Shown one piece after another: positions 1,786 through 54,500 of a stretch of DNA of 64,000 bases. Position 1 is the stretch's first letter. Each line of letters opens with the position of its first letter. Below the pieces are notes generated by a model. That model was not told where the DNA came from and ran no database searches. It worked only from the letters and a program-made list of their open reading frames with translations. This DNA comes from Acorus gramineus (lineage: Eukaryota > Streptophyta > Magnoliopsida > Acorales > Acoraceae): positions 9,820,690-9,884,689 of the forward strand of contig CM060854.1 in the NCBI GenBank assembly GCA_030737835.1. The letters run 5' to 3'. The translations under genes were made by a program, and so were the position numbers.

Positions 1786-2665
1786 GGGTTAAAGATATAT
1801 AAGTCCCTATAAACATGGGAAAAACCATATAAGTCCCTATTAAAATTGAGACAGACGTACAAGTCCCTGAAAACTCAGAAAAATCCAATTATCATCCCTG
1901 AGTTAAATTTCCATCCAAACTTAATGGAATATTCCCAGAATATTCCATCACATGTAATTGTGTTGACATTGAAGTCCTTATAAACAGTCATAAAGAAAAT
2001 TAATCCCTGTAAAAGAAAAAATTGTCTCTAAAAGACTTTTACATTTAATTGAATAGACATTACAGTATTTATAAATAATCGTAAAGACAAATTGGTCCCT
2101 GTAAAAGAAAAATACCCCTGAAGGATTTTTACATTTAATTGTGTAGACATTGCACTCTTTATAATCAATCACACTCCACCTGAAGATCATAATTTGGATG
2201 TAAAACCAATATTTTAACCGGTAGAATGCATTCTTCACGGGCATTTTGGTCTTTTATAGGGACCATTTTGTCTTTGCGATTATTTATAAGGACTGTAATG
2301 TTTATCTAATTAAATGTAAAAATCTTTTAGGGACAATTTTATCTTTTACAGGGATTAATTTGTCTTTATGATTGTTTATAGGGACTGCAATGTGTACACA
2401 ATTTAATGTAAAAGTCTTTCAGGGACAATTTTATCTTTTGCATGGACTAATTTGTCTTTATGACTGTTTATAAGAACTTCAATGTCTATACAATTATATG
2501 TGATGGAATATTCTGAGAATATTCCGTTAAGTTTGGATGGAAATTTAACTCAGGGATGATAATTGGGTTTTTCTGAATTTTCAAGGACTCGTACGTCTGT
2601 CCTAATTTTAATAGAAACTTATATGAATTTTTTCATGTTTGTAGGGACTTAGATGTCTTTAACCC
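1786..2665. mobile_element. Mutator-like MITE with ~400-bp inverted arms
   Basis: A non-autonomous DNA transposon. The left arm (from 1786) and right arm (to 2665) are imperfect inverted copies over roughly 400 bp, starting GGGTTAAAGA and ending TCTTTAACCC. The element is flanked by a perfect 9-bp direct repeat TTAATTTTT (1777-1785 and 2666-2674), the target duplication length typical of Mutator-like elements. The outer left arm carries AAGTCCCT at 1801, 1831 and 1861, an exact 30-bp spacing. The right arm mirrors this, with ACT cores at 2587, 2617 and 2647. There is no transposase; short open frames inside are not genes. Confidence 0.85.
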
Positions 2666-2739
2666 TTAATTTTTTTAACTGAAAAAATGACTTAATCCAA
2701 AATTTCCGATTGCCACAATTTACAGTTCTCTGTCTGTTT

Positions 2740-4340: not shown

Positions 4341-4344
4341 ATCA

Positions 4345-5382: not shown

Positions 5383-5384
5383 GG

Positions 5385-5396: not shown

Positions 5397-5415
5397 GAGG
5401 ATTTGCCTTGTTGTG

Positions 5416-6525
5416 ATGGCAAATAACGGAGGGGGAGACGACCAATCTAATGACGCTGGTCGTGGATTGGAGGATCTGTGGAAGGCGGTCGAGGAACAGC
5501 GAGATCAAATGCAGGAGATCCGTACGATGATCGCTGGCCTAAACCTCAACGCCAACAACAGGCATCCTGAAGGTGATAGGAGACGCGCCGAGGGAATTGC
5601 CCAAGGCCGACCTATTGCTCAAAACACCGTTCGACGTCCCAATCGTTATCAACCTGATGATGAGGAAGACTCGGATGATGAAGGTGACGGGTTTCAAGTA
5701 TATCAGCCGAGAGGGCGGCGTATGGAACACAATGATTACCGATTGAAGGCAGATATCCCGTACTTCAATGGTAATATGCAGATCGAGGATTTTCTCGATT
5801 GGATCTCAGAGGTCGAAAGATTCTTTGAGATGATGGAGGTCCCAGAAGAAAAGATGATCAAATTGGTGGCTTTTCGATTGAAGAGCGGTGCAGCCGTTTG
5901 GTGGGATCAACTCCAGAAGACTCGGCAGCGACAAGGGAAGGCACCTATTCGTTCATGGAGGCGGATGAAGCCACTAATGTTGGAACGATTTCTTCCACCA
6001 GATTATGAACAATATCTATTCCAACTATATCAGAACTGTCGCCAAGGTAATCGATCGGTATTTGATTATACTGCTGAGTTTTTGAGGCTTCCGGATAGAA
6101 ATAACATCGCAGAAACCGATGGACAACGTGTGGCCCGATACCTTAACGGGTTAAAGCCTTGGATCCGAGATCGGATTGGCTTACACGTGGTGTGGACCAT
6201 CGAGGAAGCCAATAACATGGCGCTGAAGGCAGAACTCATGGACCAGAAACCCGGAAGTTCGTCAAACTTTCGCAGAAGCAACCCAGATTCTGTCCCTTCC
6301 TCTGACAAAGGAAAGGGTCTGGCATCTCAAACTCCGTTCAATCAGACGAGAACTCCATCCAAGGGTGCGAACAATGAATCAGGTGGTTTCAATCAAACCA
6401 CTGTTCCAGCAAATCGTACTGCACCAAGAATCCAAACCCTTATGCTAAGCCTATACCAGGCAATTGCTATCGATGTGGAAAGCCAGGACATCGTTCTAAC
6501 GTATGTCCAGAACGCAAGACCGTGA
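5416..6525 (+). CDS. gag: Gag capsid region, Ty3/gypsy
   Basis: Structural protein of the retrotransposon that forms the virus-like particle and packages RNA. The first ATG is at 5416, 20 bases after the primer site. An acidic linker ([10 protein letters not shown]) is followed by the retrotransposon gag domain at roughly residues 115-215, including the [13 protein letters not shown] and AAVWWDQL segments. The normal C-terminal zinc knuckle is not in this frame: CX2CX4HX4C ([14 protein letters not shown], 6465-6506) is read in the pol frame. The frame therefore changes just upstream, in the short A-run near 6426-6428, consistent with loss of one base. The last ~30 residues of this frame are out-of-frame sequence. 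Confidence 0.88.
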
Positions 6526-9437
6526 ATCTAGTAGAAGAAGGCGACAATGATGATGTGGGAGATGAAGAATTTGATGAAGATCTTACATATGAGGGTGCTG
6601 AGTTCGCGGAGGAGGACGGAGATCGAGTCAGCCTTGTCGTACAACGATTGTTATATTCTCCGAAACACGAGGACTCCAATCAACGACACACTATTTTCAG
6701 ATCTTGTTGTTCCATCAATAAGAAGGTCTGCGATTTGATCGTAGATAGTGGGAGCTGCGAAAACTTTGTGGCGAAAAAGCTGGTGGATCACATGAAGTTA
6801 CCAACAGAGAAGCATCATACCCCTTATTCTATAGGCTGGATCAAGAAAGGACCGACGGTGAAGGTAACAGAAATTTGTAGAATTCCTATTTCAATTGGTA
6901 AATATTATCAAGATGAAGTGCTTTGCGATGTGGTGGACATGGATGCTAGCCATGTGTTGTTAGGGAGACCCTGGCAATATGATGTTGACATCACTTATAG
7001 GGGACGAGACAACACCTACATGTTCTTTTGGAAGTCACATAAAATTGCGATGGCCCCCTCAGGACTTCAACCAGCCAACAAAGGCCATAAGGTCGATGGT
7101 CGATCACTATTGACAATCGCCGAATCCGAAGCAGAGTTCATGGCAGATGCAAGGGAAGCAAAGGGAGTCTATTGTATGGTTGTTAGATCTCTTGTGGTGG
7201 AAGAACGAGAAGAAATTCCAGCGGTGATATCCCCTAGCATTAAGTCATTACTGGAGGATTTCAGAGAACTTGTTTCTGAAGAATTACCTGATAAGCTACC
7301 ACCATTGAGAGATATTCAACATCACATAGATCTTATTCCTGGAGCAAGTTTGCCTAATCTGCCCCATTATCGGATGAGTCCGAAAGAGTGTGAGATTCTG
7401 AGAGAACAAATAGAAGGCCTGCTACAAAAGGGGTTCATCCGTGAGAGCATGAGTCCTTGTGCCGTTCCTACCTTGCTGGTACCCAAGAAAGATGGAAGTT
7501 GGCGCATGTGCGTGGACAGTAGAGCCATCAACAGAATCACCGTCAAGTACCGATTTCCTATCCCCCGTTTAGACGACATGCTGGACATGTTGGAGGGCTC
7601 GAAGCTGTTTACAAAGATCGATTTACGCAGCGGGTATCATCAGATTCGGATCCGACCTGGGGATGAATGGAAGACGGCGTTCAAAAACAAGGATGGATTG
7701 TATGAGTGGCTGGTGATGCCTTTTGGTCTGTCTAATGCACCTAGCACCTTCATGCGTGTGATGAACCAGGTATTACGACCTTTTGTGGGTAAATTTGTTG
7801 TGGTATACTTTGATGATATACTCATATACAGTCCAGCTGAGGAAGAACACCTAGATCATGTGCGTCAGGTGTTAACGGTTTTGCGAGAAAATCAATTATT
7901 TATTAACTTGAAGAAATGCAATTTTATGACTAGTAGCCTCTTATTCCTGGGATATATAGTATGTGCTGAAGGAATTCATGTAGATGAAGAGAAGGTGCGA
8001 GCAATCAGGGAGTGGCCTACACCTAAGACCGTTGGAGATGTTCGGAGTTTCCATGGTCTTGCCACTTTCTATCGACGATTTGTTCGGAACTTCAGTACCA
8101 TTATGGCGCCGATTACGGAGTGCATGAAGAAAGGAAAATTCCTATGGGGTGAAGCCGCAGAAAGGAGTTTTGCATTAATCAAGGAGAAATTATGCACCGC
8201 ACCAGTCCTTGCTCTGCCCAGCTTTGAGAAGATATTTGAGGTGGAGTGCGATGCTAGCGGCGTCGGCGTAGGTGCTGTTCTTTCACAAGAGAAGAGGCCG
8301 GTCGCGTTCTTTAGCGAAAAGTTGAGCGAGGCACGACAGAAATGGAGCACATATGATCAAGAGTTTTATGCCGTGGTGCGCGCCTTGAAACAATGGGAAC
8401 ATTATTTGATTCAGCGAGAATTCGTGCTATATTCTGATCATCAAGCCTTAAAGTTTCTGAACAACCAGAAACACGTGGACAAGATGCACATCAGGTGGTC
8501 TACTTTTCTTCAAAAATTTCCTTTTGTTATTCGTCATAAATCTGGTGCTACTAATAGAGTTGCTGATGCATTGAGTCGTCGAGCCAACGTATTGATGACG
8601 ATATCCCATGAGATCGTGGGCTTCGAGTGCTTGAAGGATTTATATGATGAAGATGATGATTTTAAAGACATTTGGACTAAGTGCGGACAGAACCAGGCCG
8701 TTAATGATTTCCACATCACTGACGGATATCTATTTCGAGGGAATCAATTGTGCATCCCAAGATCTTCTCTGAGGGAGAAATTGATTCGTGATTTACATGG
8801 TGGCGGCTTGAGCGGACATTTGGGCCGAGACAAGACCATTACCAGTTTAGAAGAGAGGTATTTCTGGCCTAAGTTGAAGAAAGATGTCGGGATCGTTGTT
8901 AAGAAGTGTTACATCTGTCAAACCTCCAAAGGTCAGTCCCAAAATACTGGTCTTTACATGCCTTTACCTATTCCTAATGGTGTTTGGGAAGACTTGTCTA
9001 TGGATTTTGTGTTGGGTCTTCCTCGTACCCAAAGAGGCGTAGATTCTGTGTTCGTAGTGGTCGACAGGTTCTCGAAGATGGCTCACTTCATCCCTTGTCA
9101 CAAGACGTCAGACGCCTCTCATATTGCGCGATTATTCTTCCGCGAGGTAGTTCGTTTACATGGAGTTCCTCAGTCCATCACTTCTGATCGTGATACGAAA
9201 TTCCTTAGTCATTTTTGGGTGACATTGTGGAAGATGTTCGATACTTCATTGAACCGTAGCAGTACTGCACATCCCCAATCTGATGGCCAGACGGAGGTAA
9301 CAAACAGAACCTTGGGTAACATGATTCGTAGCATTTGTGAGACAAACCCAAACAGTGGGATCACGCGCTACCACAAGCAGAGTTTGCATACAATAGTGCT
9401 GTTCATCGTTCGACAGAAAAGTCTCCTTTTGCACTAG
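6432..9437 (+). CDS. pol: Pol: zinc knuckle, protease, RT, RNase H, integrase core
   Basis: Enzymatic polyprotein for replication and integration of the element. In order: nucleocapsid zinc knuckle (6465-6506), aspartic protease with DSG at 6744, reverse transcriptase with the YFDD active site at 7806-7817, RNase H starting ECDASG (Asp at 8250), the integrase HHCC finger (His 8796 and 8817, Cys 8907 and 8916), and the integrase core with Asp 9003, Asp 9186 and Glu 9294, giving D-D-35-E spacing. All catalytic residues listed are present. At about 9339 the frame shifts, consistent with loss of one G from a GG pair, and the last ~30 residues of this frame are out-of-frame. There is no stop between 6432 and 9437. 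Confidence 0.92.
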
Positions 9438-11741: not shown

Positions 11742-11883
11742 CTTGTACTCCTTTTCATAATAATGAAGTAGCTAGTCTACCACTTCACTTTTCAAAAAAA
11801 AAAAAAAAAATTTGATGTATATTGCGCAATTAGATTAAAGGAAAGATACATTGTATGTTAAGAAAGAGTGGTAATATAATTTT

Positions 11884-12533
11884 GTAATTTTTGCATATAT
11901 GCCCTTGTTAAAACTCAATATTATGAAAATACCCTTGTTAAATCCCACAGTGCAAACATACCCCTCGAAAGCCTTTAAATTGTGCAACCGTGCCCCTAGG
12001 TTAAAATTCCGTCAACTCTACCCGATTTTCACTGCTTGCTCAACGTTAGTGGACGGAAAGTTTACTCTTTTATCCTTTTTATAGTCGATTTTAACATCTC
12101 AAACACCCCCTCTTCAAAAACCTCTCTTCTTCTTCTTCTTCTCTACCATTTCATTCCTCTCCAAAACCTCTCAAATATATTATGTACTCATTTTTCATCA
12201 AATTCCTCATCCTCTTCCTCCCAAAAGATCCAACAATGAGCATCTCTTCACAAATCCCTCATCCTCTTCTTCCCAAAAAGTTCAAATGGGTGCTAGGGTT
12301 TGTGATGAAGTAGAGTTAGTTTTTCTTTCTTTACATTAGTTAGGGTATTTAGGTCATTTCTTATGTTAGGTTAGGGTTTCTAACTATAAGTAAACTAGGG
12401 TTCTTAACGGCATCTGTGATAGGGGCACGGTTGCACAACTTAAAAGTTTTCAAGGGGTATTTTTGTACTGCGGGATTTAACAGGGGTATTTTCACAATAT
12501 TGAGTTTTAACAGGGGTATATATACAAAATTCC
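11884..12533. mobile_element. Mutator-like MITE, 9-bp duplication
   Basis: Inverted arms of roughly 120 bp (left from GTAATTTTTGCATATATGCCC, right its approximate reverse complement ending at 12533). A perfect 9-bp direct repeat TATAATTTT flanks it (11875-11883, 12534-12542). The left arm repeats a C-block word, GCCCTTGTTAAA at 11901, ACCCTTGTTAAA at 11931 and ACCCCTCG near 11960, again about 30 bp apart. The interior is CT-rich and non-coding. Confidence 0.85.
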
Positions 12534-12542
12534 TATAATTTT

Positions 12543-24540: not shown

Positions 24541-25312
24541 AGTACTGATATACTCAATCGGTTATGTAGTCGTATACACTATGAATAGCGTAGTATATAG
24601 GAAAAAATCCATATAAGCCCCTGTAATCTTCCTGATATCCATATAACCCCCCGTAATCTCAATATATCCATATAACCCCCTGTAAACACTATAAATGCAA
24701 CTAACCCCCCGCGGTTAAATTTTTTTAACAGAATTGGAATATTTCGAACATATTGCGTTATCTAAACCATGGTTAATAAATATGTATTCTTTTAACCGTC
24801 TGCAAGCAGCCAATACTTCAAAAAAAAAAAAATCCTAAAAGAGTGTAAAATTAGAAATATGAGGTTTTTTTTTTTAAGTATTGACCATTTTTCAGGGATT
24901 AGAAGAATATATATTTGTTAATCATAGTTTAGATAACGCAATATGTCCGAAGTATTCTAATTCTGTTAAAAAAATTTAACCGCGGAGGTTATTTGCATTT
25001 ATGGTGTGTTTACAGGGGGTTATATAGATATATTGAGATTACTGGGGGTTATATGGATATCAGGAAGATTACAAGGGGTTATATGAATTTTTCCCTAGTA
25101 TATAATGCGCTATCATAGTGTGGTGTAGTTTTTTTTTTCATTTTTTCAACATGAAAAAATACACTAATATATCTCAGCATATATTTCATTTTATGTAACA
25201 GCGTATACTTCAATTGAAGAGTGTATGATTTTGTTTTTATAAAAAAAACAGTGTCGACTGTGATTGAGGCTGTAATGGGGCTGGACGTATCATTTTCTTG
25301 GATGAATCATTA
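24541..25312 (+). repeat. Family E copy 2, interrupted by a MITE
   Basis: 24541-24599 (GTACTGATATACTCAATCGG onward) and 25096-25312 (to GGGGCTGGACGTATCATTTTC) are the two halves of one family E copy. The TAGTATATA at the junction is the target duplication of the inserted element 24600-25095. Confidence 0.6.
24600..25095. mobile_element. Mutator-like MITE, 9-bp duplication
   Basis: Inverted arms starting GGAAAAAATCCATATAA and ending TTATATGAATTTTTCCC, with a perfect 9-bp duplication TAGTATATA (24591-24599, 25096-25104). The left arm repeats TCCATATAAsCCCC at 24608, 24638 and 24667. The right arm repeats GGGGTTATAT at 25016, 25045 and 25075. Both show 29-30 bp spacing. 496 bp, non-coding. Confidence 0.88.
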
Positions 25313-26943: not shown

Positions 26944-27404
26944 TAAAAAAAAGTACAATGCGTTTGGACCCCTTAAAGTTTTTGAAACATGCAGAAACAC
27001 CCCATGAAATTAAAAAACATGCACTCACACCCCTTGCCATTAGATTTTTAATTAAGATGGGAAAAAAATATAATTTTGCCCTTTTAATAAAATCATTGTC
27101 TTGTTTTCACCTTTTAATTAACTATTTTGTAAGTTAATTCTCATAAAAATTGCATTCATATGTACTTGAAGAGTTAATTATTTTATTGATTAATATTCAT
27201 AAAATATATCCAAAGTTAGTTGGTTTTTTGGGATATTTTAAAAACTAATTAAAGGGTAAAATAGTAATTTTAAAATATTTTTGTTCCATCTTAATAAAAA
27301 TTTAACGATAAGGGGTGTAAATGCATGTTTCTGAACTTCATGAGGTGTTTCTACAGGTTTCAAAAACCTCAGAGACTCCTAATGCATTTTACCCATAAAT
27401 TTTT
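26944..27404. mobile_element. Inverted-repeat MITE, C-block spaced ~30 bp
   Basis: Imperfect inverted arms. The left side has GTACAATGCGTTTGGACCCC and the right side CCTAATGCATTTTAC. ACCCC blocks lie at 26968, 26999 and 27029 (31 and 30-bp spacing). The exact ends and target duplication are uncertain. Non-coding. Confidence 0.6.
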
Positions 27405-28600: not shown

Positions 28601-28629
<29 letters not shown>

Positions 28630-28852: not shown

Positions 28853-28873
28853 CCCCCCCCCCCCCCCCCCCCC
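28853..28873 (+). repeat. Poly(C) run, 21 bases
   Basis: Uninterrupted C homopolymer. Its length is likely uncertain in the assembly. Confidence 0.9.
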
Positions 28874-28879
28874 AAATTC

Positions 28880-29200: not shown

Positions 29201-29202
29201 CA

Positions 29203-29218
29203 GTGAAACCGGTTTCAC
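29203..29218. other. Perfect 16-bp palindrome
   Basis: GTGAAACCGGTTTCAC is its own reverse complement. Most of it (AAACCGGTTTCACA) recurs at 29467-29480, 264 bases downstream. The function is unknown. Confidence 0.85.
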
Positions 29219-29314
29219 ATGTATGATGGAAATTCATCTCCACCATCATATTTAAATCCACCAGATCGGACGGCGGGCATTTAATCCGCAACGCCGTTCC
29301 GTCTCACCCAATCG

Positions 29315-29320
<6 letters not shown>

Positions 29321-29368
<48 letters not shown>
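29321..29368. repeat. Compound microsatellite (TC)14(TA)10
   Basis: (TC)n runs directly into (TA)n. The same compound structure occurs in intron 1 of the receptor kinase (39519-39570). Confidence 0.95.
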
Positions 29369-29484
29369 GAGGGGCGATTACGTGTGACGAAACGACAGGT
29401 GCGGCTTCATTTTCAGCCGTTCGATCTAGTGGTCCACTATCAGGCGGTGGGGATTAAAAAGTCGACAAACCGGTTTCACAGGTT

Positions 29485-33335: not shown

Positions 33336-33852
33336 CAGTTATGGTTTCTATCTTTCCCCTTTACAGAACTCTCTTTTTACGAATAACTCTGGTTTCTATT
33401 TATACATGTTACATATGATTTCATCCAATTGCTCACATTTATTAGTGGAAATCCTCTGTTACATCTTATACTTGGGAGATTAATAATGGAATTTATTTAA
33501 TGGATGAAGTATTATGTAGTGTGTGATTCATAGATTTATAAGAGAGGTGATTGTTTGTGTCAGAGGTGTCATAATTTTTTTTTCTTAGCTACAGATCACA
33601 GTTTTGGTGTGCTATACAACATGTACTCAGGGTTTTGTGGTTTAGCAAAAGTGCATAATTTGGTACTTTGGAGATTTGGAGATCAGAAAAATATGAACAG
33701 GTGAGCATGATATAATTATCCCATTTTTAGTCAGTTGGGTTCACTAAAAAATTCACATTGATTGTTCACTATATTTCAGGTGTTCCACATGTGGTGAGGG
33801 CAAGGACTTCAACTCTTTTTTTTTTTCTGGGATGTTACAGAGAAGGCAAGGA

Positions 33853-34020
33853 CTTCAACTTGATGGATGCAGTGGTTGAAGATTGACTCTCCATTTTTAA
33901 TATGTAAAACTTGATGGATGTAATGGTTGAAGATTGACTCTGTTTTTTTAATATGTATAACTTGATGGATGTATGTGTATGATGTTGCAAGAACCGGTTT
34001 AATGTTTAACTTGATGGATA
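33853..34020 (+). repeat. Tandem repeats downstream of the FAR1-like gene
   Basis: Two and a half copies of a unit of about 55 bp: AACTTGATGGATGyArTGG, TTGAAGATTGACTCT, then T-rich and ATATGTAwAA. Probably 3' untranslated or flanking sequence. Confidence 0.75.
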
Positions 34021-36058
34021 TTTTAGAACAGGCGAGCATGATATTTGAGTTTCAGAACTGGAGAACACCACTTGAATCCGTCAATATTTCACATTGCATT
34101 ATGGTCTCCTTATTGTTGCTGCAGATGACACTTTTGATTAGCAGATTAGATAGATGAAACATTTGATTAGCAAATTAGTTAAGTAATGGCTGTTAAAATA
34201 GTGCATCCATTAAATAAATGTAGACGTTGATGGTAGCTCGTCAAGCGCTAGGAGGGATGATATATCACCCCTTGCATCTCCCTGTTTCAAGGTTTAGGAC
34301 AATTGGCTAAAGAAAACATACAAGTCCAGCTGTTCAGAAACTGCTTTGTTTGGACATCTGCTGCCCTTTGAGTTATTGGTCTTCATTTTTCCAAGAAAAA
34401 ATAACAAAGAGGAACATGAAAGAAGTAAAAAAAAAGGCATATGCATAACTGCATGTGGGTGTGGAATGAGTCATATCTTCTGTAGAGATTAGCATCAATT
34501 GGTTTGGTCAATGACTCACATGGTGAAGATTAGCATATTTTGTCTCACCAATGGAGAAAGAGTCACATGATGCATATGAGGAGGACATAGTGTCCCAAGC
34601 TGTAGAGAAGAATGGACGACCACAAAGAAATTCTTCACATGAAAAAATCTATATTTCATTACAAATCAAGATAATTATCTATATTTTCATTTTTTTTTTT
34701 TCATAAAAATTTAAACCGCACCAGGATTGCAAAAATGATCAATGGTTGGATGTGACATTTAATTACCAACATTTTCCCAAAATTTTCCCATTTGATATGA
34801 ATGTGACATTGACGACCTTGGCTACGTTGCAGATAAAGGTCAACCTGGATTCCTGGAGAAGAAGTCAATTGCAAAAATTACAAAACGACATTGTAGGTTA
34901 AATATCCAGAAGTCAATTAGAGGGTTGTTGGATACATAGAAGAATTAAACATATACATATATAACTTTTTCTTATCAACCACTTTTCAACCACATAAAAT
35001 GTTCTTAGCAAACCTTAAAAGTCAAAACATGTTTAGGTTAAACATGATTAATGCAAAAACGGCATTTTCAAATGAGTTCCAAGTATCCCCATCTTCTATA
35101 AACAATGAAAAAATAGCTCTTACGGACTCAAATTAACAAAATATTTTTCCTTTGTGATCTAGTTTTAAAAATAATTTTAAATGACAAGTTCAATTTTAAA
35201 TTTGTAAACAAGCAAAAAAAAGAAAAGGCACAAGAAACATGCTTTGAAAAATCTTAGATGCCTAGGGAAAAAAAAAAGACAAACGTATATAGATTACGAA
35301 ATCTCTACTAGAATGTGTGTGAACTGAATCTCCTTGAAAGACCTTGGTTTTCTATGGAGTTCTAGTATGAGTGTTGTACACATAGTCCCCATGATAGTTG
35401 TTTGTTTAATATAATATATATATATTATTAGAAAGGTATTATATGTGAAATTTTTCACATTTCATGCGCATGTTAGAGAAAATATACAGCCCAACGTGAT
35501 CTTCAAAAATCACTACCCATGCATATCTAGTCAGATCCTCCTAAGGTAATTTGCTGCATTGACCACAACTCATATTTATATTTATGTATTTGATGGTCAA
35601 GTAAAAAAACTAACAGAATCTCCAATCCCCCCTCCGGGCCCTCCCCCCCTAAGGCCCCAACCATCTACATCTTAGCCAGCGCATAGACAGAGACACCCAA
35701 AATCAACTGCAGTCCATAATATTTATTTTAGTCTTTATCTTAATAGAATATAACTAGATTTGTAGTTAACCATAACTATACATGATACATTACCATATAT
35801 AATACTCTTTTAACATTTATTTTCTTTCTTTGAAAAAATGAATATAAATTTCTATAAATTTATGAACATCAGAAAATGTCTCTGTAAAATTGTTAATTCT
35901 CTCATATCTTCATTTTATTGGGCAATTTTTTTTTTCCAGTTCCTATCATAGCTAGAATTAACTGTAGATGCAAACTTTTAATGTACGTTGTCAAAAACAA
36001 ATTGTTTTAGATACTATACAAATGTACTATAATTAGAATAAACTGTTTTAGGCACTAT
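34021..36058. other. Intergenic, nothing recognised
   Basis: No gene or bounded transposon seen in about 2 kb. A C-rich patch lies at 35625-35665. Confidence 0.35.
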
Positions 36059-36066
36059 GCTGAGAA

Positions 36067-36526
36067 TAGAGGTGTCAAACGGGCGGGCCGACCCGACCCG
36101 GCCCGTTAAGGGCCCGTGCCGGCACGGGCCGTGCCGTGGGCCGGCACGTTTGGGTGGCGACGCGGGCTGGGCCTGACATCCGGCCCGCGTGCCGTTTCTG
36201 GCACGGCCCGTTAGGCCCGCCGTGCCGGAACGGCACGGCCCGCTAGGCCCGCGGCACGGTTTGTGCCGCGGGCCCCACCTCCACCAACGGGTCAACGGGC
36301 CGCGTCGGCCCGTTGGCAGGCCAACGGGCCCGGCCCGTTTGGCCCGCCGGGCTAGCATGGCACGGCACGGTGGCCCGTTGGGCTGGCACGGAGGGCCGTG
36401 CTGGGCCGACCTCCTGCGGAGCGTGCCGTGCCGGCACGGCTACATGAAACGGGCCGGGCCGTTAGCCCGTTAGCCCGGTTGTTTAGCTGGCCGGGCCGAC
36501 ACGGCACGGCCCGTTTTACACCTCTA
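36067..36526. mobile_element. GC-rich hAT-type MITE, perfect 8-bp duplication
   Basis: Ends TAGAGGTGTCAAACGGGC and (complement of right) TAGAGGTGTAAAACGGGC. Flanked by GCTGAGAA on both sides (36059-36066 and 36527-36534), an exact 8-bp target duplication of hAT type. The 460-bp interior is built of CGGCCCG and CGGCACG words and is very GC-rich within AT-rich surroundings. Overlapping open frames on both strands result from the lack of AT and are not genes. Confidence 0.93.
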
Positions 36527-36534
36527 GCTGAGAA

Positions 36535-37960
36535 CATGCTTTATATTTCTATCTATTATACTAACCATGAGTGTTTTTAAACTTTCAACTCTATTCATAA
36601 TTCTTTTGTATGTTTTTACTCTTACAAATTTATTAAAATCGATTATTATTATAAATAATTATTTTTCTCCTAATTTTATCTTAAGATTTAAATAGTAATA
36701 TATTTTATAAATTTTATATAAATCAGATTCTCTAAAAATAATTAAAAAAAGAAACTACAAAATTTTCTTAGTGGAAGTGATAATGGCATTTTGGATGTTT
36801 CTAGGTTTGAAGGGTATTTCAGTCATAAATATGAATGATTTATATATTATTATTTTTTCAAGAACTTATTTGATGTTTTCAGTGATTCCGTTAACTTAAA
36901 CATAATATTTCTAGAATATGCTCATTGTACAGGCAATAATACCATTGACTAGGGAAAAAAAAGATAGGGACCCAATGGAATTATGTTGTTACACAGTTTC
37001 TTCCAACCCCAATTCTAGTCCCGTATGCATCAATAGAAATTAAAAGCATCGATACATATAGTTTTATTAACGAGGTATATGCATATTGATAGAAATTTTT
37101 CTCATTTTTTATAAATATAGTCATGCAATTTATTGGAGCATATGATTATTTTTTATAAAAGCACAGACTTCATGAAATGATGTATATTATTTTTAAAAAA
37201 TTTAAAACATTAATTGAAATTAAGGATGAAAAAAAGGACTGTACGTAACATTATCCATTGGAATTTATTGATTTTATAAGGATTTTTTTATTTATATTAA
37301 AAATTTTCCCTTTTTTTTGTTCAATTTGCAAAACTAATCCTATTGTTTTAATATTACCAAAAATGACTCTACCCAATGATTATTTGCAAAAACTAATGGC
37401 CTTTGACCCTAGCAACACTTCTGATCTGTTTACTTTTTGATATGGAGATATGGTGTATATACCACATCTCTTTATAAAAGGAAGCATTATATATATGATG
37501 CTAATTTCTGGTCTCTTGTGGTTAGATTGCGTTACATTTTAAAATTTAAATTTTAAATCCATCATATCTATTTAAATGATTCAAATTTTAAATTTTATAT
37601 CAATATTATAAAATTCAAAATAATCTTATCTATAATTTAAATATTATTACTAATTTAATTTTAAATCCAATCTATTAAATAACAAAGAATATGAAGATGT
37701 GGATATTCGGTAAAGAAAAATATGAGTGCATAAAAGAGACATGAACCGTGTAAAAAGAACTTGATCCCAAGATTTTTGTAACTTAGTGCCATGGATACGT
37801 GATACATATATCAAGCCTATCTTTAAACTAGAGACATAATACATTCTTAATATAATAAAAATAAATGTCCAATAAGTGTTGATGTGACAGCGTTGAAAGT
37901 CTATTTGTAAATATTCGATAAGCCCGGTCATTTGTGCGAATATTCAAAACTTTGGGGTTA
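36535..37960. other. Intergenic, nothing recognised
   Basis: AT-rich sequence without recognised genes or bounded elements. Confidence 0.35.
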
Positions 37961-37969
37961 GTTTTGAAA

Positions 37970-39035
37970 ATTACACCTTTTGTTTGTAATTTGTATTTTT
38001 AAATCCTTGTAAACTATCTTATTTACTGATTAATTTATCTCTTCTTCATATTTTATTTTAAATCTCCAACTTCAAACACCTTTTTTCGTTATTAGTCACT
38101 CAACAAAATATCTGTCTGATTTTTTAAGTATTTTAATATTAGAAACTTGTATACAAAATACTCCGTAAAACATTTAAAACAAAACGACATTACATTGTTA
38201 AGTGTCCAATGACAATTTTAGTATTACTTAACACTACACATGCCCACTCAATCTAGTATTGCATTCTCTAATAGCTTTATCTGTCTAATTATGATTGATT
38301 ATATAATAAGAAAAAGAATGATTACATATGCAAATTTTGAGGATTTTTTATTATTGAATTTTGATTTATAGGATTTTTCTTGGTTCAAAATTGTGAAATA
38401 TCGAATTAGACTTTTGTGTTTGTTTAGAATTTTAATTTTAAAAATTTAGATGCCATTAAAAAATTTGCATGCAGTAAATGAAAATTTTATTTTGCGTAAT
38501 GCTAAAATTTTATTTATTTAGTGAATTAGTGATTTTAAGGGAATCTAACTATTTAATTATTTAGAGATTGAGTGATTTTTTTTATGGAAAGTGATTTAGT
38601 GATTTTAAAATTTTTATTTTTAGTGATTTAGTGATTTCATTTAGAGGATAAGTAGTTTAAAATTTTCAAATATGAACATTTTAAGTCCTCAAATTCAAAT
38701 GACTTTTTTGTTATTAGCCTCAAAGAGACGAACATTTTGTGCAGGGACTAATAACAAAAAACGTGTTAAAGTTGGGGACTTAAAATGCAATATGAAGAAG
38801 GGAGAGATCGATGACTAAATAACATAGTTTATAGTGATTTAAAAAATAAAAATATCAAATGGTAGTTGAGGAATTTCAACTATCTGTAATCTTAAACAGA
38901 CGGACGTTTGGTGGTGAGACTAATAACAAAAAAGTCATTTGAATTTGAGGACTTAAAATGAAATATGAAGAAGGGAGAGATTGATCACTAATTAAATAAC
39001 ATAGTTTACATGAATTTAAAAATAAGAATCCCTTA
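37970..39035 (-). repeat. Family D repeat copy, inverted
   Basis: Contains AAATCCTTGTAAACTATCTT near the left and GAAATATGAAGAAGGGAGAGA twice on the right (about 38785-38810 and 38957-38980). 38130-38290 is an approximate reverse complement of 18640-18810. Non-coding. It lies just upstream of the receptor kinase gene. Confidence 0.55.
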
Positions 39036-39436: not shown

Positions 39437-39516
39437 ATGATGACAATGGCAACACTTGTTTCTCTCTGCACTTTGATTCTCTTCACTTTTCTGCTTCCTC
39501 TTGTTCAGTCCCAGCA

Positions 39517-39518
<2 letters not shown>
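39437..39518 (+). CDS. Receptor kinase exon 1: signal peptide
   Basis: [20 protein letters not shown] followed by PLVQSQQ: a hydrophobic core with a plausible cleavage after VQS or SQ. An internal ATG at 39446 could also serve. Ends in phase 1. Confidence 0.85.
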
Positions 39519-39569
<51 letters not shown>

Positions 39570-42500
39570 ACATATCAAACCATGCATGTATCTCTCTTTG
39601 TTTTGATTGCAAACAATGTATGCATGTATATAGGGTTCATAAGCATCGACTGTGGGTGTAACGAGAGCTACGTAGACGGAACAACCACCATAGAATACAA
39701 ATCAGACTACCCATACATATCCACCGGAGAGACCCACCACGTCTCCCCGGAATATAATCAAAACTGGAGAGCTTTACAGACGCTTCGGAGCTTTCCAACC
39801 GGGGTCCGAAACTGTTATGACATCGACATCTCGAAAGGAAAAGGCGGCAAGTACTTGTTAAGGACTGTTTTCTACTACGGAAACTACGACGGCCTCAACA
39901 GCGCACCCGAGTTTGATCTCTATGTGGGAGTCAACCTCTGGGCGGTGGTCGAGACGAGCGACAACAACACGGTGTTCGAGCTCGTAATGGTGGCGCAAAC
40001 GAACACGGTGTCAGTGTGTCTGGTGAACACGGAGAAGGGGACGCCCTACATATCGACGATCGAGCTGAGGCCGCTAAGTGATGCTCTTTACCCAGCCGCG
40101 ACCGTTAACACGTCTTTGACGCTTCAGTGGCGGGAAAACTATGCGTCAGCCACTTCGGATGTTATAAGGTCAGTTTGTTTTTGCACATGATCATCTGATC
40201 ATATGATTTAGAGATACAAAATTTAATTGAATACTAAAAAAAAAATATAATTTAACTGATCATAATTTTAATTTTGAAATTTAAAAGAATATTTTGGTTA
40301 TAATTACTCTAAAAGATCAAACTGTTACAATCTTATTGAACAAACAAATTATTTAATGGGCGTTGGACCTAACCCGATCCCTCTACGTAAATGTTATACT
40401 CAGTTTTATTACAGTTTAAAACGCAAAAAACACAAGTAAACACTCTAATGAGGTATATACGTACTTTGATAAATAAAAAATATATATATCGTTCCATTCT
40501 AAATTGAATAAATCTATTTTTAGAAAGTGTATGAAAAATTTAAGTTATACACGTTGTCTAAAGAGAATATTTATACTCCACTGGAGGAGGACGAGACATA
40601 TGAGTCTACTTTAAAGACCGGAAGAAAAAAGGGAATGTAACTTGTGATAATTTCCTTAAAATCATATGCATATAAAGATCATATAGTGCCCTTGACTTTA
40701 TTTATTAGTGTTATTTATTTATTTATTTTTGGGGAAGCAAAGATGAGCAGATCGTATACTCTGTCAGCCGATGGCAACGTCGGCCACGGAGGAAGGATTG
40801 GGATTTGAGAATAAAATAATATGCGACTTTGGGACAATTATGTCAATAAAATAGCCATCAGGACACGCAAGACTAATTAGATTGACCGCGTCATTGTTTA
40901 AAAGACCGATCCGACCCAGTCAACTGGGTAAATGTTTAATCTCTCTAATTCGGTTTCTCCACAACATCCTAAGCCCCGTTAGAAACATGAATATGATTTA
41001 TTTTTATATATATATTTATTTAAGTATAAGTAAATATAAATAAAGATAAAATAATTTTGTATTTCATTATATTTTGAATTATTTTTTTTAGTAAACGTAA
41101 GAATAAATGTTTTATTGTTTAAATAAAATGTGAATAAAGTATAGATAAAGATTTATAAAAAATAAAAAAATAATGATAGTTGATTTGATAAGTGATTTAT
41201 AAGAGGTGATCACAGTTGATTTGACAGTGAGCCCACATATTCTTTGGATGGAATAACCTAGGATAAATTTAATTCCAGGAGTTGGTTGGAATCTATATAC
41301 CAGTTTATGCGAGTATACTTTATCAGGGGTTATACGGGGTTTCTAAACACCCTTTATCCCTTATCCGAGATTATCCAGAGGTTTATTCCCAAAACAAACG
41401 GGAGCTAAGTATCCAAGTGTGTGTATGTGTGTATAAAAAATAATGTTACATACAACCCATTTTCAAGCATAAATCCAATCTACAAGTGTTTTAAATTTTT
41501 AAAATAATATATCTCATCTAATGAGATACATAATTTTATAAAAAATGAAACATATGTTCCAATGAATTATATTGATCATTTATAAAAAAATATAAAAAAA
41601 TTCTATCGAAGCATATACTTCATTAATGTGAGTATATGCTCTATTAATTTTTTTTATCAAAACATATAAGATTAAAATTAAGACTGAAAAAAAAATTATA
41701 GGTATAACAACACTCATAAAAAATTTCTTAAAACACAATCAACCCATTATCTGAATCGATAGTTTTGAAAACAGCCAGTAGCGGTTGATTAAACCAACCC
41801 ATTATTAAGCCATACAAAATTAATGTCAAAATTCAGAATTCATAATTGCACTTCATTCAACATTTATATTACCCAAAAAATAAAAAAAAACGCATGCACA
41901 CTCCTATGAAAAATAGTTGCTTTCTTCCTCGGATTTCTTTTGAGGATAAGTTATCCTAAGCCTTGTTTCAAGAATAATCCCTAGAATAACTGAGAATTAG
42001 ATAGAATAGCTTTTTTTCTTGTTTGGATGCCTGGTATACCCTCCCCGTATAGCGTGGAACATAAGTCAAGAATAATGAAGAATAATTGAGAATAACTTTA
42101 AAAAGTTGTTTGTTTTAATAGAATAAACATCGATAGTTATGTCTGGATAAGCTAGGATAATACCTGATAACTATTCTAAGGAAATGTTGGAATTATTTAT
42201 CAAGATTTATCTATGCCAATGGATAAAAATACCCTTCTCTGTCATTTTAAAAAATTTATTTCACCTAACAGTTTCACACAAATTTTAAAAACTGTCACAT
42301 CTATTAAATCAATCATACATCTCTCACACTATTCCCGGGAGTATAATGGTCATTTAAAAAGTCATAAACATTTACCCCCCGTATGGCATGGAACATAAAG
42401 CAATAATAATGAAGAATAGATGAGAATAGTTAAAAAAAATTGTTTGTTTTGATAGAATAAATCCTGATAGTTATGTCTGAATAAGCTAGAATAAGGCCTG

Positions 42501-45500: not shown

Positions 45501-48500
45501 TATTTGAAAATTTTTGTAATAAAACATTATTATTAATGAGACTACGTTGAACATAATTTTATACAATTCAAAAAAGTAAATGAATTACTAAACAACATTC
45601 AAAACAATAATCACTAACATAAACAACATATTAACCTAAACAATAAACATAATTAATTATACAAGCATTCAAAACAATATTAACCTAGCAACATTCAAAA
45701 CAATAAACACTAATATATTAACTTAAACAATAAACATAAATCATGCAACAAACTAATTAATTATACAAATTCAAAAACTAATAAGTTAATTGTCCAAAAC
45801 AAACCAACGACAATACATTACTAAGTTTACTACATATTAAACAACCAAGTTCTTATAAGTTGCAACATCAACACAACAAAAAAAATGTTATGATTACAAC
45901 ATTCAAAACAATAAACACTAACATATTAACTTAAACAATAAACATAAATTATGCAACAAACTAATTAATTATACAAATTTAAAAATTAATAAGTTAATTG
46001 TCCAAAACAAACCAACGACAATACATTACTAAGTTTACTACATATTAAACAACCAAGTTCTTATAAGTTGCAACATCAACACAACAAAAAAAATGTTATG
46101 ATTATGATTATGATTTATGATTTATGGGCTTGTTATGATTATGATTTATGAACTTGTAGATACAAAAATAAGTTAAGTAAGAAATAAAATTATAGGTCAA
46201 CTAATACTAATAGTCTTGTAATATATGAGCATATATTAATAAAACAATCGGGTCTCAGGTCCAACTGGTCGGGGCGGGGTGAACCCGGACCCGACCCGTT
46301 TGTATGTTTGGGTCCACTGGGTCGGGTCCGGTATATTAGATGTGTAATTGGGTCCGGGTCGGGTCCAGGCCTGGACCCGACCCGTTGACAGGTCTTACTA
46401 AAAGGAACATATCCTTTAAATCTGGGGACTTAAACCAAAATATGAAGAAGTGAGGGATCGATCACTAAATTATATAGTTTACGACTTAAAAATAAAAAGC
46501 CCTTTTTTAAATTATTCTCCTCGTATTTCTTACAATTCTTTACATATTCCACTACTCAAACAACACATATTGTATACTAGTGGATCAAAATTAGTAATAT
46601 TCTTAATTTTTTTTAAAAAATAATTATATTGGTGCATCTCAAAGTATATTTTATTTTGGGTATTTTTACATAAATGCATTTCTTAAAATTTAGTTTTGTT
46701 GAATTACCCTCCTTATATCCTTGATAGCAAAAATACTAATGAATAATTTAAAAGTAGTGCAAAAATACTCTTCTATTAGTCATCATTTGAAACCCATAGT
46801 AAACTATGATCAGTTTTTTAAACTACCAGGTTAAATTACTCATTTACCCCACTCAAACTCTCAAATTTTTTTTTTTGCATATATATGCGATATTTTGTTT
46901 TTGTCAAAATACCCCTATAAAAAACCATACTCACATAAATAGCCCTCAAAATTTTATAAATTGTGCATCGGTACTCGTCTGTTACATGCTTTCCATCTCG
47001 ACTACCCAGGTGTGTATATTAACTCACTTACCCTTACCCTAAATCAGACATTTTTCATCTCTCTTTTCTCTATTTCAACCAGTTAAACATTAAACCTTAA
47101 CCGGAAATCAACTACCTATGTCTTTTACTCTAAACCACGAATCATCATTACTTTCATTTTCATTCTCCTGTATTAAAAAATCTTTCTAATCACCATTTGT
47201 GTGAAGAGAGACATTTATTGTGTAAATGCACAATATATTGTTTTGGACGTTGAAGAGGAAGAAGAAACAAAAATATTTTAGACTTTTCAACTGTTTTTAA
47301 TGGTTCAAATGAGATTTTAATGGTAACATTTAACCCAGCTCACGAAATTGATCGCAGGGGCACTAATGCACATCTTATAAAATTTTGAGGGGTATTTATC
47401 CAAGGATGGTTTTTACAGAGGTATTTTGACAAAAACAGAATATAATAGAGTGTATATGCAAGGCCTCTTGGTGGATATTTTGAATATTTTACGTGGACCT
47501 ATCGTTGACTAGCGGATTTTTCTAGCCAACCCCATGGCAATTAACCACAAGGGCATCGTTGTGCTATTTTTACATGGGTGTTTTTGCCACCAAAGGTGTG
47601 AGGAGTAATTCTGCGAAAATGAATGATCAAATGGGTATATATACAAAAAAAAAAACTCTTTTATAATAACAATATATGCACTAAGGGGACAAATATATAA
47701 TCTTCTTTTAAAAAATAACCAGGAGGGACGTTGATAAGACTACACATATACGCCTGTCAATGGATCGTGAGTCGCCCGGAACCGACTTGAATCCGACTCG
47801 ATAAAAGGTGTAAATACCGACTTGAAGGACCCGACAATCAAAATGGGTCAGGTCTAGGTCCACCCCTACCCAATCATATGGACTCGATTGACCCAATCCA
47901 ACATTTATAACTAAATATTGAATAATCATTTAAAAATTTATACATTTAAAATATTTTTACAACTTTTTTACTTCACGTAAAAGCATAATAATTCAAACCG
48001 TATTTCAAATGCTCTCTTATAAAATATTAAAAAATCAAAATAGTGAAGAATTATTTATAATACACTGAACTTCTTTTATTCAAACTCATTATGTAAAAAT
48101 AGAAATGAAAAAAAATTAAACTCAAGAAAACATGGTCTCCACTATCTCAATGTGCAGTGTCATCTCACTTAATATCAAAACCAAAACCCTCTTACATTCT
48201 TCTCCTCCTCTTCCTTCCTTTTTTCAAACCTTTTATTTTTTTCCAAACAAACAGTTGAAGTCATTGGAGACCCTTAAAAAAGATCAACCTCTCCCGGCTT
48301 CCCTTGGTTTGACCTAGGCCTATTAGCGGGTCGACCTGATTGGACCCGAAAGACCTGAAATTAGGCCTATCAACGGGTCTGGTCCTGATCGGGTCGGGGT
48401 GGACCCGGACCTGACCCGTTTGATTTTTGGGTCCTTTGGATCGGGTCCATATCGGGCCTTAGATCGGGTCTTGTCGGGTCGGGTCGGGTCGACCTATTAA

Positions 48501-51500
48501 CAAGTTTAGGCTAAACAAAGAGAGGTTGATGAACTTCTTAAAAGCTTACAATGGCTTCATTTTTTTTTAATAGAGTTTAGTGTATTATAAATAGTTCTTC
48601 ACTATTTTGATTTTTTAATGTTTTATAAGTAAACATTTGGAATACAGTTTGTATTGTTATGTTTTTACATGAAGTCAAAAGGTTTTAAAAAATATTTTAA
48701 ATGTTTAAAATTTTAAATGATTATTCAATATATAGTTATAAATGTTTGGTTGGATCATGAGTGTTGGGTTGTATCATAAATATAAAAAAATCACACAGTA
48801 TTTCGGTTGGGTCCATAGGATCGGGTCGGATGGACCCAGACCGGATCCGTTTTGATTATCGAGTCTTTTGGATCCAGTATTTTTATCTTTTATCTGATCG
48901 CGTTCAGGTCGAGTCCTGATTGATTCGCGACTCGTTGACAGACCTACTTGAGATCCGATCTAGACCGGACAATAAAAATGAGTCCACCCTAACCCCACCT
49001 GACCCGTTGACGGGCTTAGCCACGTAGCATTTCCCAATGATGAGTTCTGCATTCGGAGCCAGAGGAGGGAAAAGAAACAGAAGAATGAGCCTCCATTTCC
49101 TTTTCCCCGGAGGATTCTAACCTAGAAAGTTTTGTGTTTCAAAATGATGATCCAGGTATCCAAAAGACAAATACGACCGCAGATGGTGGCCAGTTCTAGG
49201 AAAGGCATCATTGCCCCCGCTCGATACCCGTTCAACAATAAAAGGCAACTCCGGCTACGACGTGCCGTCGGTGGTCATGGACACTGCCGACAGCGGCGAC
49301 ATGTACAACCTGTGGAACAATGTGCTCAAGAACCCCATTTTGGGGTACCATGTTTACCTTCACTTCATGGAGATCCAAATCCTCAATGCGAGTCAGTCGA
49401 GACTAATCGACATATACTTCAACAACAAGATATTCATGACAGGTTTCCAGCCCAAGTACCTGTACACCGACACCCTCTTCAACGCCGACCCCCTCTCCGA
49501 AATCCCCAATGCCTTCTACAACCTCAGCGCAAGCAACGGCTCTACTCTTCCCCCGCTCTTGAACGCCGCGGAGCTCTACGCCGCCATCAATTGGGCGATA
49601 AACGCCTCCACCTTTGGCCAAGACGGTATGCTTGAAACTCCTTCCCATTGTTTGATTCGAGAATAGGGAATAGCAAAAAAATGGGTGTTTGGAAGGCTAG
49701 AATTATTACGATTCTTAATGTTAGAATTAACTGATATAATTAGTTCTGCTACCTCTCGTAATTAAGTTATTTCATGTTATTCAACCTTTTTGAATATGTG
49801 GGCTTTAAATCAACTGTCATCACTAAATCTTATAAATCAAGGGACCCATATGTCAAATCATTTTTTTACATTTTATAAATTCTTATCCACACTTTATTCA
49901 CATTCAATTTATTTACGATCAACCAAACAACAAAAACTTCATTATAACATTTCCCAACGAGAATAAATAAAAACACAACCCAACAAAAAAATCATTTATT
50001 CCTTATCCATATTAGAATAGTTATAAACCTCAGAATAACTTAATTTTCTATCCAAAGAAGCCCTGCCTTGTGGAAAATGGTAATGGATACATATTCTGTC
50101 CTTTCTATGGTCCTAATTGAGAATATGATTTCTCTGGTCAAGTATATACTAGGGAAACTGCAAGAATATATATATTCAATTCATTCGAATATATGCTTTA
50201 TCTTTTTGTGAAGACATTTACTTCATTACGCAAATATATAATTTTTAAGAAATTCAAAATATGTTAGGACTACAAAAGTGACTGTGGAATGTTCATGGCA
50301 ATTTTCTTTCTTTCTTTCTTTCTTTCTAGGGAAGATAGGAACTTTATTACCAAATTTTTTTTATTGATTTAAAGTTTTAGGAACAAAAGGGAAAAAAAAA
50401 AGTTGTCAAAGTAGTAGATGAGCATTCTACTATGAAACTATCTGATTGATATAGTACAAGATGTGAAGACCCGCAAGAGTTGTTGGGGCAAGAAGATACG
50501 AAGAGAGCAGGTTGAGAGGGCCTGTGGAAGGCCTAAACTTCTAAGGACCATAATTATTTATATAGGTGTCGGAATAACTCATTATATATGATTTTGATGC
50601 AACTCGACTCTTATGTGGGCTGAGTGCATGTACCAAAGAAGGATAATAGATCACAGACAACAGAGCCATCGCAAGATCACTATCAAATAGTGATTCCCCA
50701 TCTCGTGGTTGGAGGATATGCTAGACATATTGTCTGGGCGCACAGATCTTCACAAAGGTTGATCTAAAGCGTAAATATCACCGGATTTGCATAGGCCTGG
50801 ACAAGAGTGAAAGGCTTCCTTCAAGAGCAATGAGGTTCTGTGTGAGTGATTGGTGATGCCTTTTGGAGGTTAATGAATTACTTATTAAAACCTTTCATTG
50901 ACAGATTTGTAGTAGTTTATTTTGATGATATTTTCATATATATAATTTAATGAAGGGGAAGCGTATACCCCATGTGAGGAAGGTACTAATAGTCTTACAG
51001 AAAAAGAAGTTGTACAATAACTTAAAGAATGCAGTTTCATGATGCTCAACTTGTCTTCTTTTTTTTCTTTTTTGATAAATACGGTAGGCGACCCCCCTTA
51101 TATTAATAAAGGCGAAAGCCCAAAGCAAAGTTGCAAAGCAATAAAAACAAATGACATAAACAAATAGAGGCCACCCGGAAGACCCCCGTAGAAAAGTCTT
51201 CTACCAGTTGGAGTTTGTTGTTAGGCTAATAGGATTCAATTTGATGAAGAGAAAGTTCAAGCTGTCCATGAATGATCTACCCCAAATACTGTCGGTGAGG
51301 TTCGTAGTGGACTGTGATGTATTACTGGAGGGTGTATGGGCCCTCCTATCTGAAGAGGGAAAGCTTGTGACCTTCTAAAGCAAGAAGCTCAACGACACAA
51401 TAAAGAAATGAACCACATACAAGCTGGAGTTTTATTCAGTAGTGCACAAACAGAGACGTGAACTGGATGCATGGTACAAAGAAACGACCCGGTTCGGGGG

Positions 51501-54500
51501 GGTGCTAACCATTTAACCGTTTAAGGCACAAATTTTAAAACATGCTTAATATTGCTTTTTTCAAAGAATAATTTTGCTGAACCATATGCCTTTTGTAGGT
51601 GTTACATGGTTAGGTTAAAAATATTTCAGATGGTCTGCCCTTTTTTTTAAGGGAAAAAATCCAAATAACCCCTCGTAAATTTCCTGAAATCCATATAACC
51701 CCCTGACTTATCCTAAAGTCCATATAAACCCCTAAAAACATCTATATAAATAAAAAAAAACCCTTGAGTTATATTTCCGTTGATAGATGAGGAATATTCT
51801 GTTTGGTTAACCTCGAGAGAAAACACAGTATACCAGAAGAACCCCCTATAATTTGCGAAAAATCCTGTGTAAATAACAGATTTACTCCTCCAAATAGATT
51901 ATAAAATCCTATCCGGGGGGGGGGGGGGGTGTAAAATCATCATTTTTTAATGATTTTTCATATTTTTTAACACATTATAAGGTTATTTTGATATATTATG
52001 TTTTCATCCAGGGTTAACGTGACAAAATATTCACAGAATAATCATAATCTGTCAACAAAAATTTAACTCACGGGGCTATTTGGATTTACATAGGGGTTTT
52101 TAGGGGGTTATATGGATTTCAGACAGTTTACAAGGCGTTATATGGATTTTTCCGTTTTTCAATGTATATATCGAGTCAACTTAAAATGTGTGTCTCTAAT
52201 TCTAAAATATTTTTCTGATAAGTCCAACTACATTTTAAACTCCAAACTGATCACTTCTAATGTGGTACAACTTAATAAAAAAAAATGAAGGAACTTGCTT
52301 TTTGCTACCTGAAGTTGTGTATTATTATTGAGATTAAAAATCTGTCAATAGGACGACTTCGTGAACCAGGTAATTTCATGGTCTACTTTCAGTAATGTAT
52401 ACTTGGTTAATTGTATCCCAGTTGATGCAATTCAACAAATCAAATGGGCATACGGCGTAAAGAGGAATTGGATGGGTGATCCATGCCTTCCTCATGCTTA
52501 CTCTTGGGAGGGATTGGCTTGCAGCAATGACAATCTGCCTAGAATAATTTCTTTGTAAGTAAGATGGAAGTGTATCTACATGAATAAAGGCAAATATTCA
52601 ACTATTGTAATACTAACTAATATATATTAACTGCATTTTTATCCTTCAGGAACTTGTCTTCCAGTGGACTTAACGGGAAGATATCTGCTTCCTTTGCTGA
52701 CCTTAAACTGATTCAGACCCTGTAAGTAATATAAGAGCATTCTAAAAAAACATTGCTTCAAGCGTATTTTTGGCAAATTCAACATCTTTGATTACTTCTA
52801 TACTCTGTTGCATGCAATCCATTGCATTGTAATTATATTTTTCAGGGATCTATCAGGCAATAATTTGGTGGGCAATATACCTGATTTTCTGGCACAACTG
52901 TCATCGTTGACGCTTCTGTAAGTTAGCTGTAATCAGTCAATCTTTATGTAATATTTCTTAAGAAAATCCTTACCATTCTTTTTGCAGTTTGGTAAGAGGA
53001 TGCACCAGATTTTACTCCTATTTGACCATTTTAAACGTGACCGATCTTCTTGTTTATCAATATGAGCAATTAAGAAAACCACCTTCCATATATCAGATGC
53101 CACACCATAAAATGATCTACGATCAAGACCCAGTTTATGCGATATACCACCTAACACATGCAATATTGGGGCGATCGTAGTCATAAATCGAAAGCTTCTC
53201 AAACGTTTGTTCCTGCGATGGTTTGGGCTATTTGGCTCACTTGAAATCAAGCGGTGTTTAATGGGTCAAAAGTATATACAGACTTTATTAAGATGTGGGG
53301 TACCATGCTCGCGGGGGCATCGAGTGTTGGTCTTGTGGGAGGGAAAATTTGCATTGAGGAATAGCTCTTAGTAGTTGTATTGTCTGGTAGGTAGAGCCCT
53401 CCTCTACTGTATCTGGGCATGCCCTCTCAGGGGCGTGATTTGTATTTTCCCTTCCGGGTTTTGTCCTAATCTTAATACAATCTTGACAATAGCCTACCAT
53501 TTATCCAAAAAAAAAAAAAAAAACACATGCAATATCAAAACCATATATATTGTTAGACAGTCAATACCAATTCATCAAAGGTACAATTATTATGTGCCCC
53601 CTTTTTTACCAATCAAGGTTCATACTACTCCATGGCCATGCAATCAGTAGTTTACTTTTACCTTTTCTGAAGTTTTTTTTTATTGTTCAAATGGTTGAGG
53701 TGTTTTCCTTTTAACTTAGAGTGGGCAGATCCTATACTTTGTTTTTTTTTTTTTCTAATATTTTCTTTGTATAACTTAATCCAAACACTGAATGTCATGG
53801 TTTGATTTGAATTTTTGAAATCTGATGACCCTATCATCTTGGAATGATGATCTGGACTTTAGGATTACATAACTTCTTCTGATTCTGGCATTAAAGCTTC
53901 ATAGTCTCATGATTGTAAGCGGTGAAAATAGAAAAGTTATCCAATCTATTAAACTAGAGCTAGAGAACATGCAGGTACCTATTTTCAGGGTTTACATACG
54001 AACTGTTGTTATATATTGAAATAATCATTTCCATTCCATATGCATTTTTCAAGCATAGATTAATAATTCAAAGATTGCCATCGTGACACAATAATGAACT
54101 GGGTACAATAAGTTAAAATCCATGTCTGATGGGGACTGCTGACTACGTGTGGCAAACGTGTCCTTTTTCATTGAACTCAAATGATCCACTATTACTAATA
54201 CAAGTGATTGTCTTAAGAAAAGTTAGAAGCAGAGGCTATAGATGAGAGGTTAACTTCTTCGAAAGAAAACACTCCACATAGATGCCTTAGAAAGGAATAT
54301 TTTTCTTAATGCATTTATTTATTATTGTCATTCATATATCCCTAGAGGATTTGTATTCATATTTCCGTAGAGGACTTGTTCTCCTATATGCTTTATAACA
54401 TTATGTTTTCCTTCCCTTTTCATTTGTTAAGTTTCTGCTGTCATAATCTTCCTCAAGTTATCTTTATAATGCATCTTGAGAAGTTAAAATTTCGCATTGA

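Follow-up and report, generated by a model that had tools for sequence, protein, structure and literature searches.

Ends built from repeated units are already known among Mutator-like elements (MULEs) of mosquito, nematodes and Medicago. Muta1 and other MULEs of Aedes aegypti have an 8-9 bp duplication and TIRs made of a terminal motif and tandem units; 10 of the 12 families with long TIRs carry tandem repeats, and unit number differs among derivatives (PMC5225508). Tm1 from root-knot nematodes has a 9-bp duplication and tandem TIR units whose number is unequal between the ends of one element (PMC3169594). MuTAnT of Medicago truncatula is described as MULE MITEs with TIRs of similar segments, a G tip, a 9-bp duplication and an autonomous relative (PMC4486113), and in other plant MULEs whole long TIRs are duplicated (PMC3310237).

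The 64-kb piece of the Acorus gramineus genome analyzed here (the window) holds six inverted-repeat elements, E1 to E6, that resemble these systems in part. Their ends, like those of Muta1, have a terminal motif and repeated units in variable number; like Tm1, they combine a 9-bp duplication and unit-built TIRs with unequal unit number at the two ends; and like MuTAnT, they appear to be plant MULE MITEs with segment-built TIRs, a tip of G's and a 9-bp duplication. However, Muta1 units are of 12 bp with spacers of 3-4 bp (9-15 bp in the group) and Tm1 units are contiguous, 13-15 bp long and of one sequence in one family, whereas the units here are of about 30 bp with unlike spacers, occur three or four to an end and keep one register across families; the spacing of 29-32 bp is not that of contiguous 9-15 bp tandem units. 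MuTAnT is a single family that targets TA microsatellites, and the part of its description available has no 30-bp ruler; insertion into (TA)n microsatellites is not the pattern here, where the duplications are A/T-rich and few are TA arrays (AATATATAT in L088 and ATATATATA in L101). The plant MULEs with multiple long TIRs share repetition at the ends but have no 30-bp unit. No description of a 30-bp ruler common to several families was found in the open-access literature, which is weak evidence since many plant papers and Repbase lie outside that coverage. Unit-built MULE ends are known, and it is the register shared across families that was not found described in the sources covered.

Materials and methods

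The genome searched comprises 398.6 Mb in 137 contigs and is A/T-rich. The six places were read in the letters of the window, and their arms were aligned. Copies were searched for with the left arm of each element as the query, and 40 to 49 matches were listed per query. First-look candidates numbered 2,430 (E1), 224 (E2), 1,377 (E3), 364 (E4), 62 (E5) and 2,822 (E6), and about 40 were scored per family, the copy sets being 40 or so from longer lists (62 to 2,822). From these, 8 (one of them the window copy), 10, 10, 8, 30 and 12 loci, in the same order, were fetched, and consensus arms were built from 14, 19, 14, 15, 24 and 17 arms; for counting from the tip, one leading base was removed from the consensus in E2, E3, E4 and E6. 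Duplications were evaluated at 52 loci of five families (47 fetched and 5 window copies, E5 being left out) with a finder that demanded a G within the first two tip bases. Pattern counts were controlled with the reversed pattern in the same genome (398.6 Mb). Three further families (F7, F9 and F13) were picked by spacing, with both arms among the listed matches, and their predicted tips were read. Loci of the MULE transposase (PF10551) gave 1,162 first-look candidates, of which 150 were listed and 30 of these examined with 1.5 kb on each side; three of the 30 were extended to 8.3 kb, and four further long-ORF loci of 7.3 kb (L089-L092) were added.

Results

The elements in the window

A preliminary description of this DNA had noticed C-rich words repeated about every 30 bp in the arms of six elements. 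Upon re-reading, the words sit where they had been placed, within a base or two. The elements, in window coordinates, are as follows.

1786..2665, no strand assigned: E1; left-arm blocks begin near 1805, 1835, 1865 and 1896; 9-bp duplication TTAATTTTT at 1777-1785 and 2666-2674
11884..12533, no strand assigned: E2; left blocks near 11902, 11932, 11961 and 11993; duplication TATAATTTT (9/9) at 11875-11883 and 12534-12542
24600..25095, no strand assigned: E3; left blocks near 24618, 24647, 24676 and 24705; duplication TAGTATATA (9/9) at 24591-24599 and 25096-25104
26950..27394, no strand assigned: E4, a three-unit family; left blocks near 26969, 27000 and 27030; bounds set from the family tips GGGTAAAATGC
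46875..47462, no strand assigned: inner inverted repeat of E5; left blocks near 46912 and 46943
51651..52153, no strand assigned: E6; left arm of four units with blocks near 51669, 51699, 51729 and 51761, right arm of three

The perfect 9-bp duplications claimed earlier for three elements were confirmed in E1, E2 and E3. The window copies of E4 and E6 have no duplication at 8/9; other copies of both families have them. For the E5 tips, a duplication search in 30 loci gave nothing convincing (27 of the 30 had weak candidates only), and the family consensus has a further C-block outside the inner repeat. Just outside E5, 47539-47648 on the minus strand gave a weak arm-profile match (E 7e-4), where a further nested ladder element perhaps ends.

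A de novo search of the window for TIRs and duplications recovered E1 and E3, missed E2, E4 and E6, and found at 38677-38960 an inverted-repeat element whose 9-bp duplication (AAATATGAA) is perfect but which lacks a C-ladder, a counter-example. At 47925-48721 a long inverted repeat, rich in A/T, has a duplication of 8/9. Elsewhere in the window are Ty3-type gag and pol ORFs (5413-9437, plus strand) and two plus-strand ORFs with Malectin-like matches (39501-40190 and 49211-49666), one corresponding to the first half of the profile and the other to the second.

Spacing and register of the C-blocks

The CC autocorrelation of the 12 window arms (150 bases each) peaks at lag 30 (z 12.9), a value reached by none of 500 dinucleotide-shuffled sets at any lag from 5 to 60 and, at lags 29-31, by no set of 12 background 150-mers among 2000 drawn from the same window. 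Family consensus sequences had been suggested as a check of the periodicity; the C-blocks are kept in the consensus arms, with 17 spacings ranging from 29 to 32 (mean 30.3, s.d. 1.0).

The observation is in fact stronger than first stated: the blocks also keep a constant distance to the tip and stand at about 19/49/78/110 (19/50/80 in E4). Counted from the GG(G) tip, the consensus blocks lie at 20/50/80/111 in E1, 19/49/78/110 in E2, 18/48/77/108 in E3, 19/50/80 in E4 and 18/48/77/109 in E6. The corresponding positions in the window left arms are 19/49/79/110 in E1 (where the slice starts one base inside the tip), 19/49/78/110 in E2, 19/48/77/106 in E3, 18/49/79 in E4 and 19/49/79/111 in E6. 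In the window, the right arms show wear, with CCC runs at 20, 99 and 111 only in E1, at 81 and 140 in E4, and at 47, 58, 79 and 141 in E6. Off-register C-runs are present in the consensus arms of E1 (39, 99, 149), E2 (61) and E4 (129).

The outermost block is 18-20 bases from the cut site, and the unit of about 30 bp usually occurs three or four times in an array. Within a unit, A/T-rich sequence leads into a C-block, which is ACCCC in general and TCCC in E1, and TGTAAA or TGTTAAA is often present too; a GTTAAATTTCC-like sequence follows the innermost block in E1, E2, E3 and E6, with a looser form in E4 and E5. The earlier suggestion that all blocks fall on one face of the helix holds only roughly, as 30.3 bp at 10.5 bp per turn makes 2.9 turns, so that each step shifts the face by about 40 degrees.

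Duplications and loss of whole units

Duplications of at least 8/9 with matching tips were found at 40 of the 52 loci, 27 of them perfect, although L110 (383 bp), counted among the 40, is doubtful; the remaining 12 are L008, L070, L081, L086, L087, L096, L107, L108, L109, L111 and the window copies of E4 and E6. Target site duplications of the Mutator-like length (9 bp, 8-11) are therefore present, some being A or T runs and little informative, and terminal inverted repeats are present in window elements and copies. At the loci with a duplication, E1, E2 and full-length E3 arms have the last unit at 105-113, and E4 arms have it at 76-82; these positions differ by whole units.

In two E3 copies, L079 and L082, one arm is clearly a unit shorter than the other: the left holds four units, the last at 108, and the right holds three, the last at 79. 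Both copies have perfect duplications, so such unequal arms were mobile. The right arm of a third copy, L083, is probably also one unit short, its motif match at 72 having five errors; the three copies are 467-469 bp long, versus 491-496 bp in other E3 copies. The E6 left arms agree (last unit at 108-109, or 122 in L110), and most right arms are so worn that the last unit could not be placed. Inverted arms with 9-bp duplications, blocks at a fixed distance from the tip and units lost as wholes together give good support to the assignment to Mutator-type elements with a repeated terminal unit.

Kinship between the families

The spacers of E2 and E5 are 50-69% identical, the first spacers of E3 and E6 79%, and units 1-3 of the E3 consensus are almost identical in sequence. 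Among 40 spacer comparisons between families, 7 were at ungapped p < 0.05, 4 of these in E2/E5 and E3/E6; the spacers of most family pairs are at the shuffled level, with spacing still only 29-32. Since E3 is kin to E6 and E2 to E5, the six elements represent about four lineages. As for the earlier claim of six different elements, the spacing of E5 is real (30/29/32 in the family consensus), and the two kin pairs lower the number of lineages.

The pattern in the genome

Whether ordinary genomic DNA has the same periodicity, a question raised by the preliminary description, was addressed genome-wide. ACCCC three times with gaps of 10-40 bases matched 13,911 times, versus 7,547 for the reversed pattern. 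Triples with start-to-start distances of 28-32 bp numbered 3,369 versus 213 (15.8 times), and there was no excess at 38-42 bp (242 versus 224, 1.1 times), so that about half of the whole excess falls within 25 of the 961 gap combinations. These are counts of patterns rather than of families, since large families and four-block arms are counted several times.

The first 100 triple matches listed, all on contig C1, include families absent from the window. F7 has a 9/9 duplication (TTAAAAATA), GGG tips and the first block at 19 in both arms. F9 has a 9/9 duplication (TATTAAAAA), tips GG and GGG, right-arm blocks at 19/49 and ACTCC at the first block of the left arm; this pair ranked second and was chosen over the best-scoring one because it sits at the tip. 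F13 has GGG tips, the first block at 18 in both arms and an 8/9 duplication that is not clean, owing to a longer direct repeat outside its ends. In F8, by pattern-match coordinates alone, the first block is at base 18 of a GGGT.

The pattern of GGGA and then two blocks matched 2,050 times (268 reversed), with the first block at base 16-21 in 80 of 94 among the matches listed, many of them E3/E6-like. GGGT followed by two blocks gave a weaker signal (1,172 versus 395 reversed); among 100 listed, 53 spans were at 47-54, 24 formed a second peak at 62-64 and 23 were other. On C1 the span-63 matches often come as two same-orientation matches separated by about 6 kb (e.g. 22186912/22192878 and 26884046/26890022), as LTR pairs would.

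Search for a transposase partner

No autonomous MULE with ladder ends of its own was found at the 34 transposase loci examined of the 1,162 candidates, and an arm-profile scan (E < 1) of the 30 PF10551 loci with 1.5-kb flanks gave no match. One extended FAR1-type locus has a weak match (E 0.006). In a second, an arm at 7552 (E 1e-19) was rejected as stray, its orientation ruling out the end of the transposase element. L089 and L090 (7.3 kb each) have no TIR of their own, and both arms of a separate MITE lie within L090. Long gene-like inverted repeats occur in L091 and L092, the outer ends of those in L091 being beyond the fetched span, and L091 has a weak partial arm-profile match (E 0.11). 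Outside the transposase gene, both the E 0.006 match, in L114 (G000:C6, near 24171100), and L091:860-945 have TCCCT units on the outer side at a spacing of 23 bp, with no matching left arm seen. These units could possibly be ends of autonomous elements with another spacing, distinct from the 30-bp ruler.

At L038, with L117 and L118 (G000:C7:6219071-6227355), FAR1-type MULE ORFs lie between 402-bp direct repeats that are 95.8% alike, and pieces of about 100-200 bp also occur as inverted copies. The window itself has, at 31419-33210 on the plus strand, ORFs with MULE transposase (PF10551) and SWIM domains, FAR1-like in our reading; no TIR or C-ladder arms were found in 28000-37500, and this is perhaps a domesticated gene.

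Discussion

The reading that we favor, with a probability of about 0.6, is that these are non-autonomous Mutator-like MITEs whose ends are arrays of putative transposase sites. Each end would consist of the GG(G) tip and a row of units of about 30 bp, usually three or four, each of them a candidate binding site of a MULE transposase. Several transposase molecules might load side by side along the array, the outermost one, at a fixed gauge from the tip, placing its catalytic domain on the cleavage site, and the inner units would add affinity and be dispensable one at a time. In maize, the stretch of the Mu end that MURA binds is about 32 bp long. The fixed distance to the cut site, the loss of whole units without loss of mobility and the presence of the blocks in both arms of elements without genes are all in keeping with an array of transposase sites. 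If the shared array has this role, a single transposase, or a few related ones, would mobilize families with unlike spacers. That the blocks are bound by a transposase or a host factor, as suggested earlier, is something that we infer from their arrangement.

Less probable is a reading in which a 30-bp stretch of a single ancestral arm was simply duplicated in tandem to give the units, the spacing and register being inherited and having no present binding role. The near identity of E3 units 1-3, the variable unit number in E3 and the kinship of E3/E6 and E2/E5 are what this would produce, yet most spacers look unrelated (7 of 40 at p < 0.05) while their lengths stay at 29-32 and the tip distance at 18-20. 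Duplication as the source and selection on the spacing can both hold.

It is rather improbable that the blocks bind a host factor of chromatin or transcription, or an element-borne anti-silencing protein, instead of the transposase. The VANC anti-silencing proteins of Arabidopsis VANDAL elements have arrays of short sites, a precedent for such a function, but the tie to the cut site better suits an enzyme that reaches the tip. Chance or low-complexity C-rich DNA is scarcely credible: GC-rich tandem stretches do occur among the pattern matches (e.g. C1:5279693), but with none of the 500 shuffles or 2000 background sets reaching the peak, and 3,369 triples against 213 at 28-32 bp with no excess at 38-42, it is refuted for the main signal.

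Beyond array and binding, a wider proposal is offered tentatively, at somewhat less than even odds: the cut site, about 19 bp and then C-blocks every 30 bp may form an end code that a large set of plant MULE MITE families, otherwise largely unrelated in sequence, have in common, closed in several families by the GTTAAATTTCC-like word, and reading out the geometry of the plant MULE transpososome. We know of no solved structure of this transpososome, and to our knowledge little is understood of how plant MULE transposases recognize ends so different from one another, or of what lets a MITE move. As it is readable from sequence alone, the ruler is also a rule for finding MULE ends de novo, and it placed the tips of three further families.
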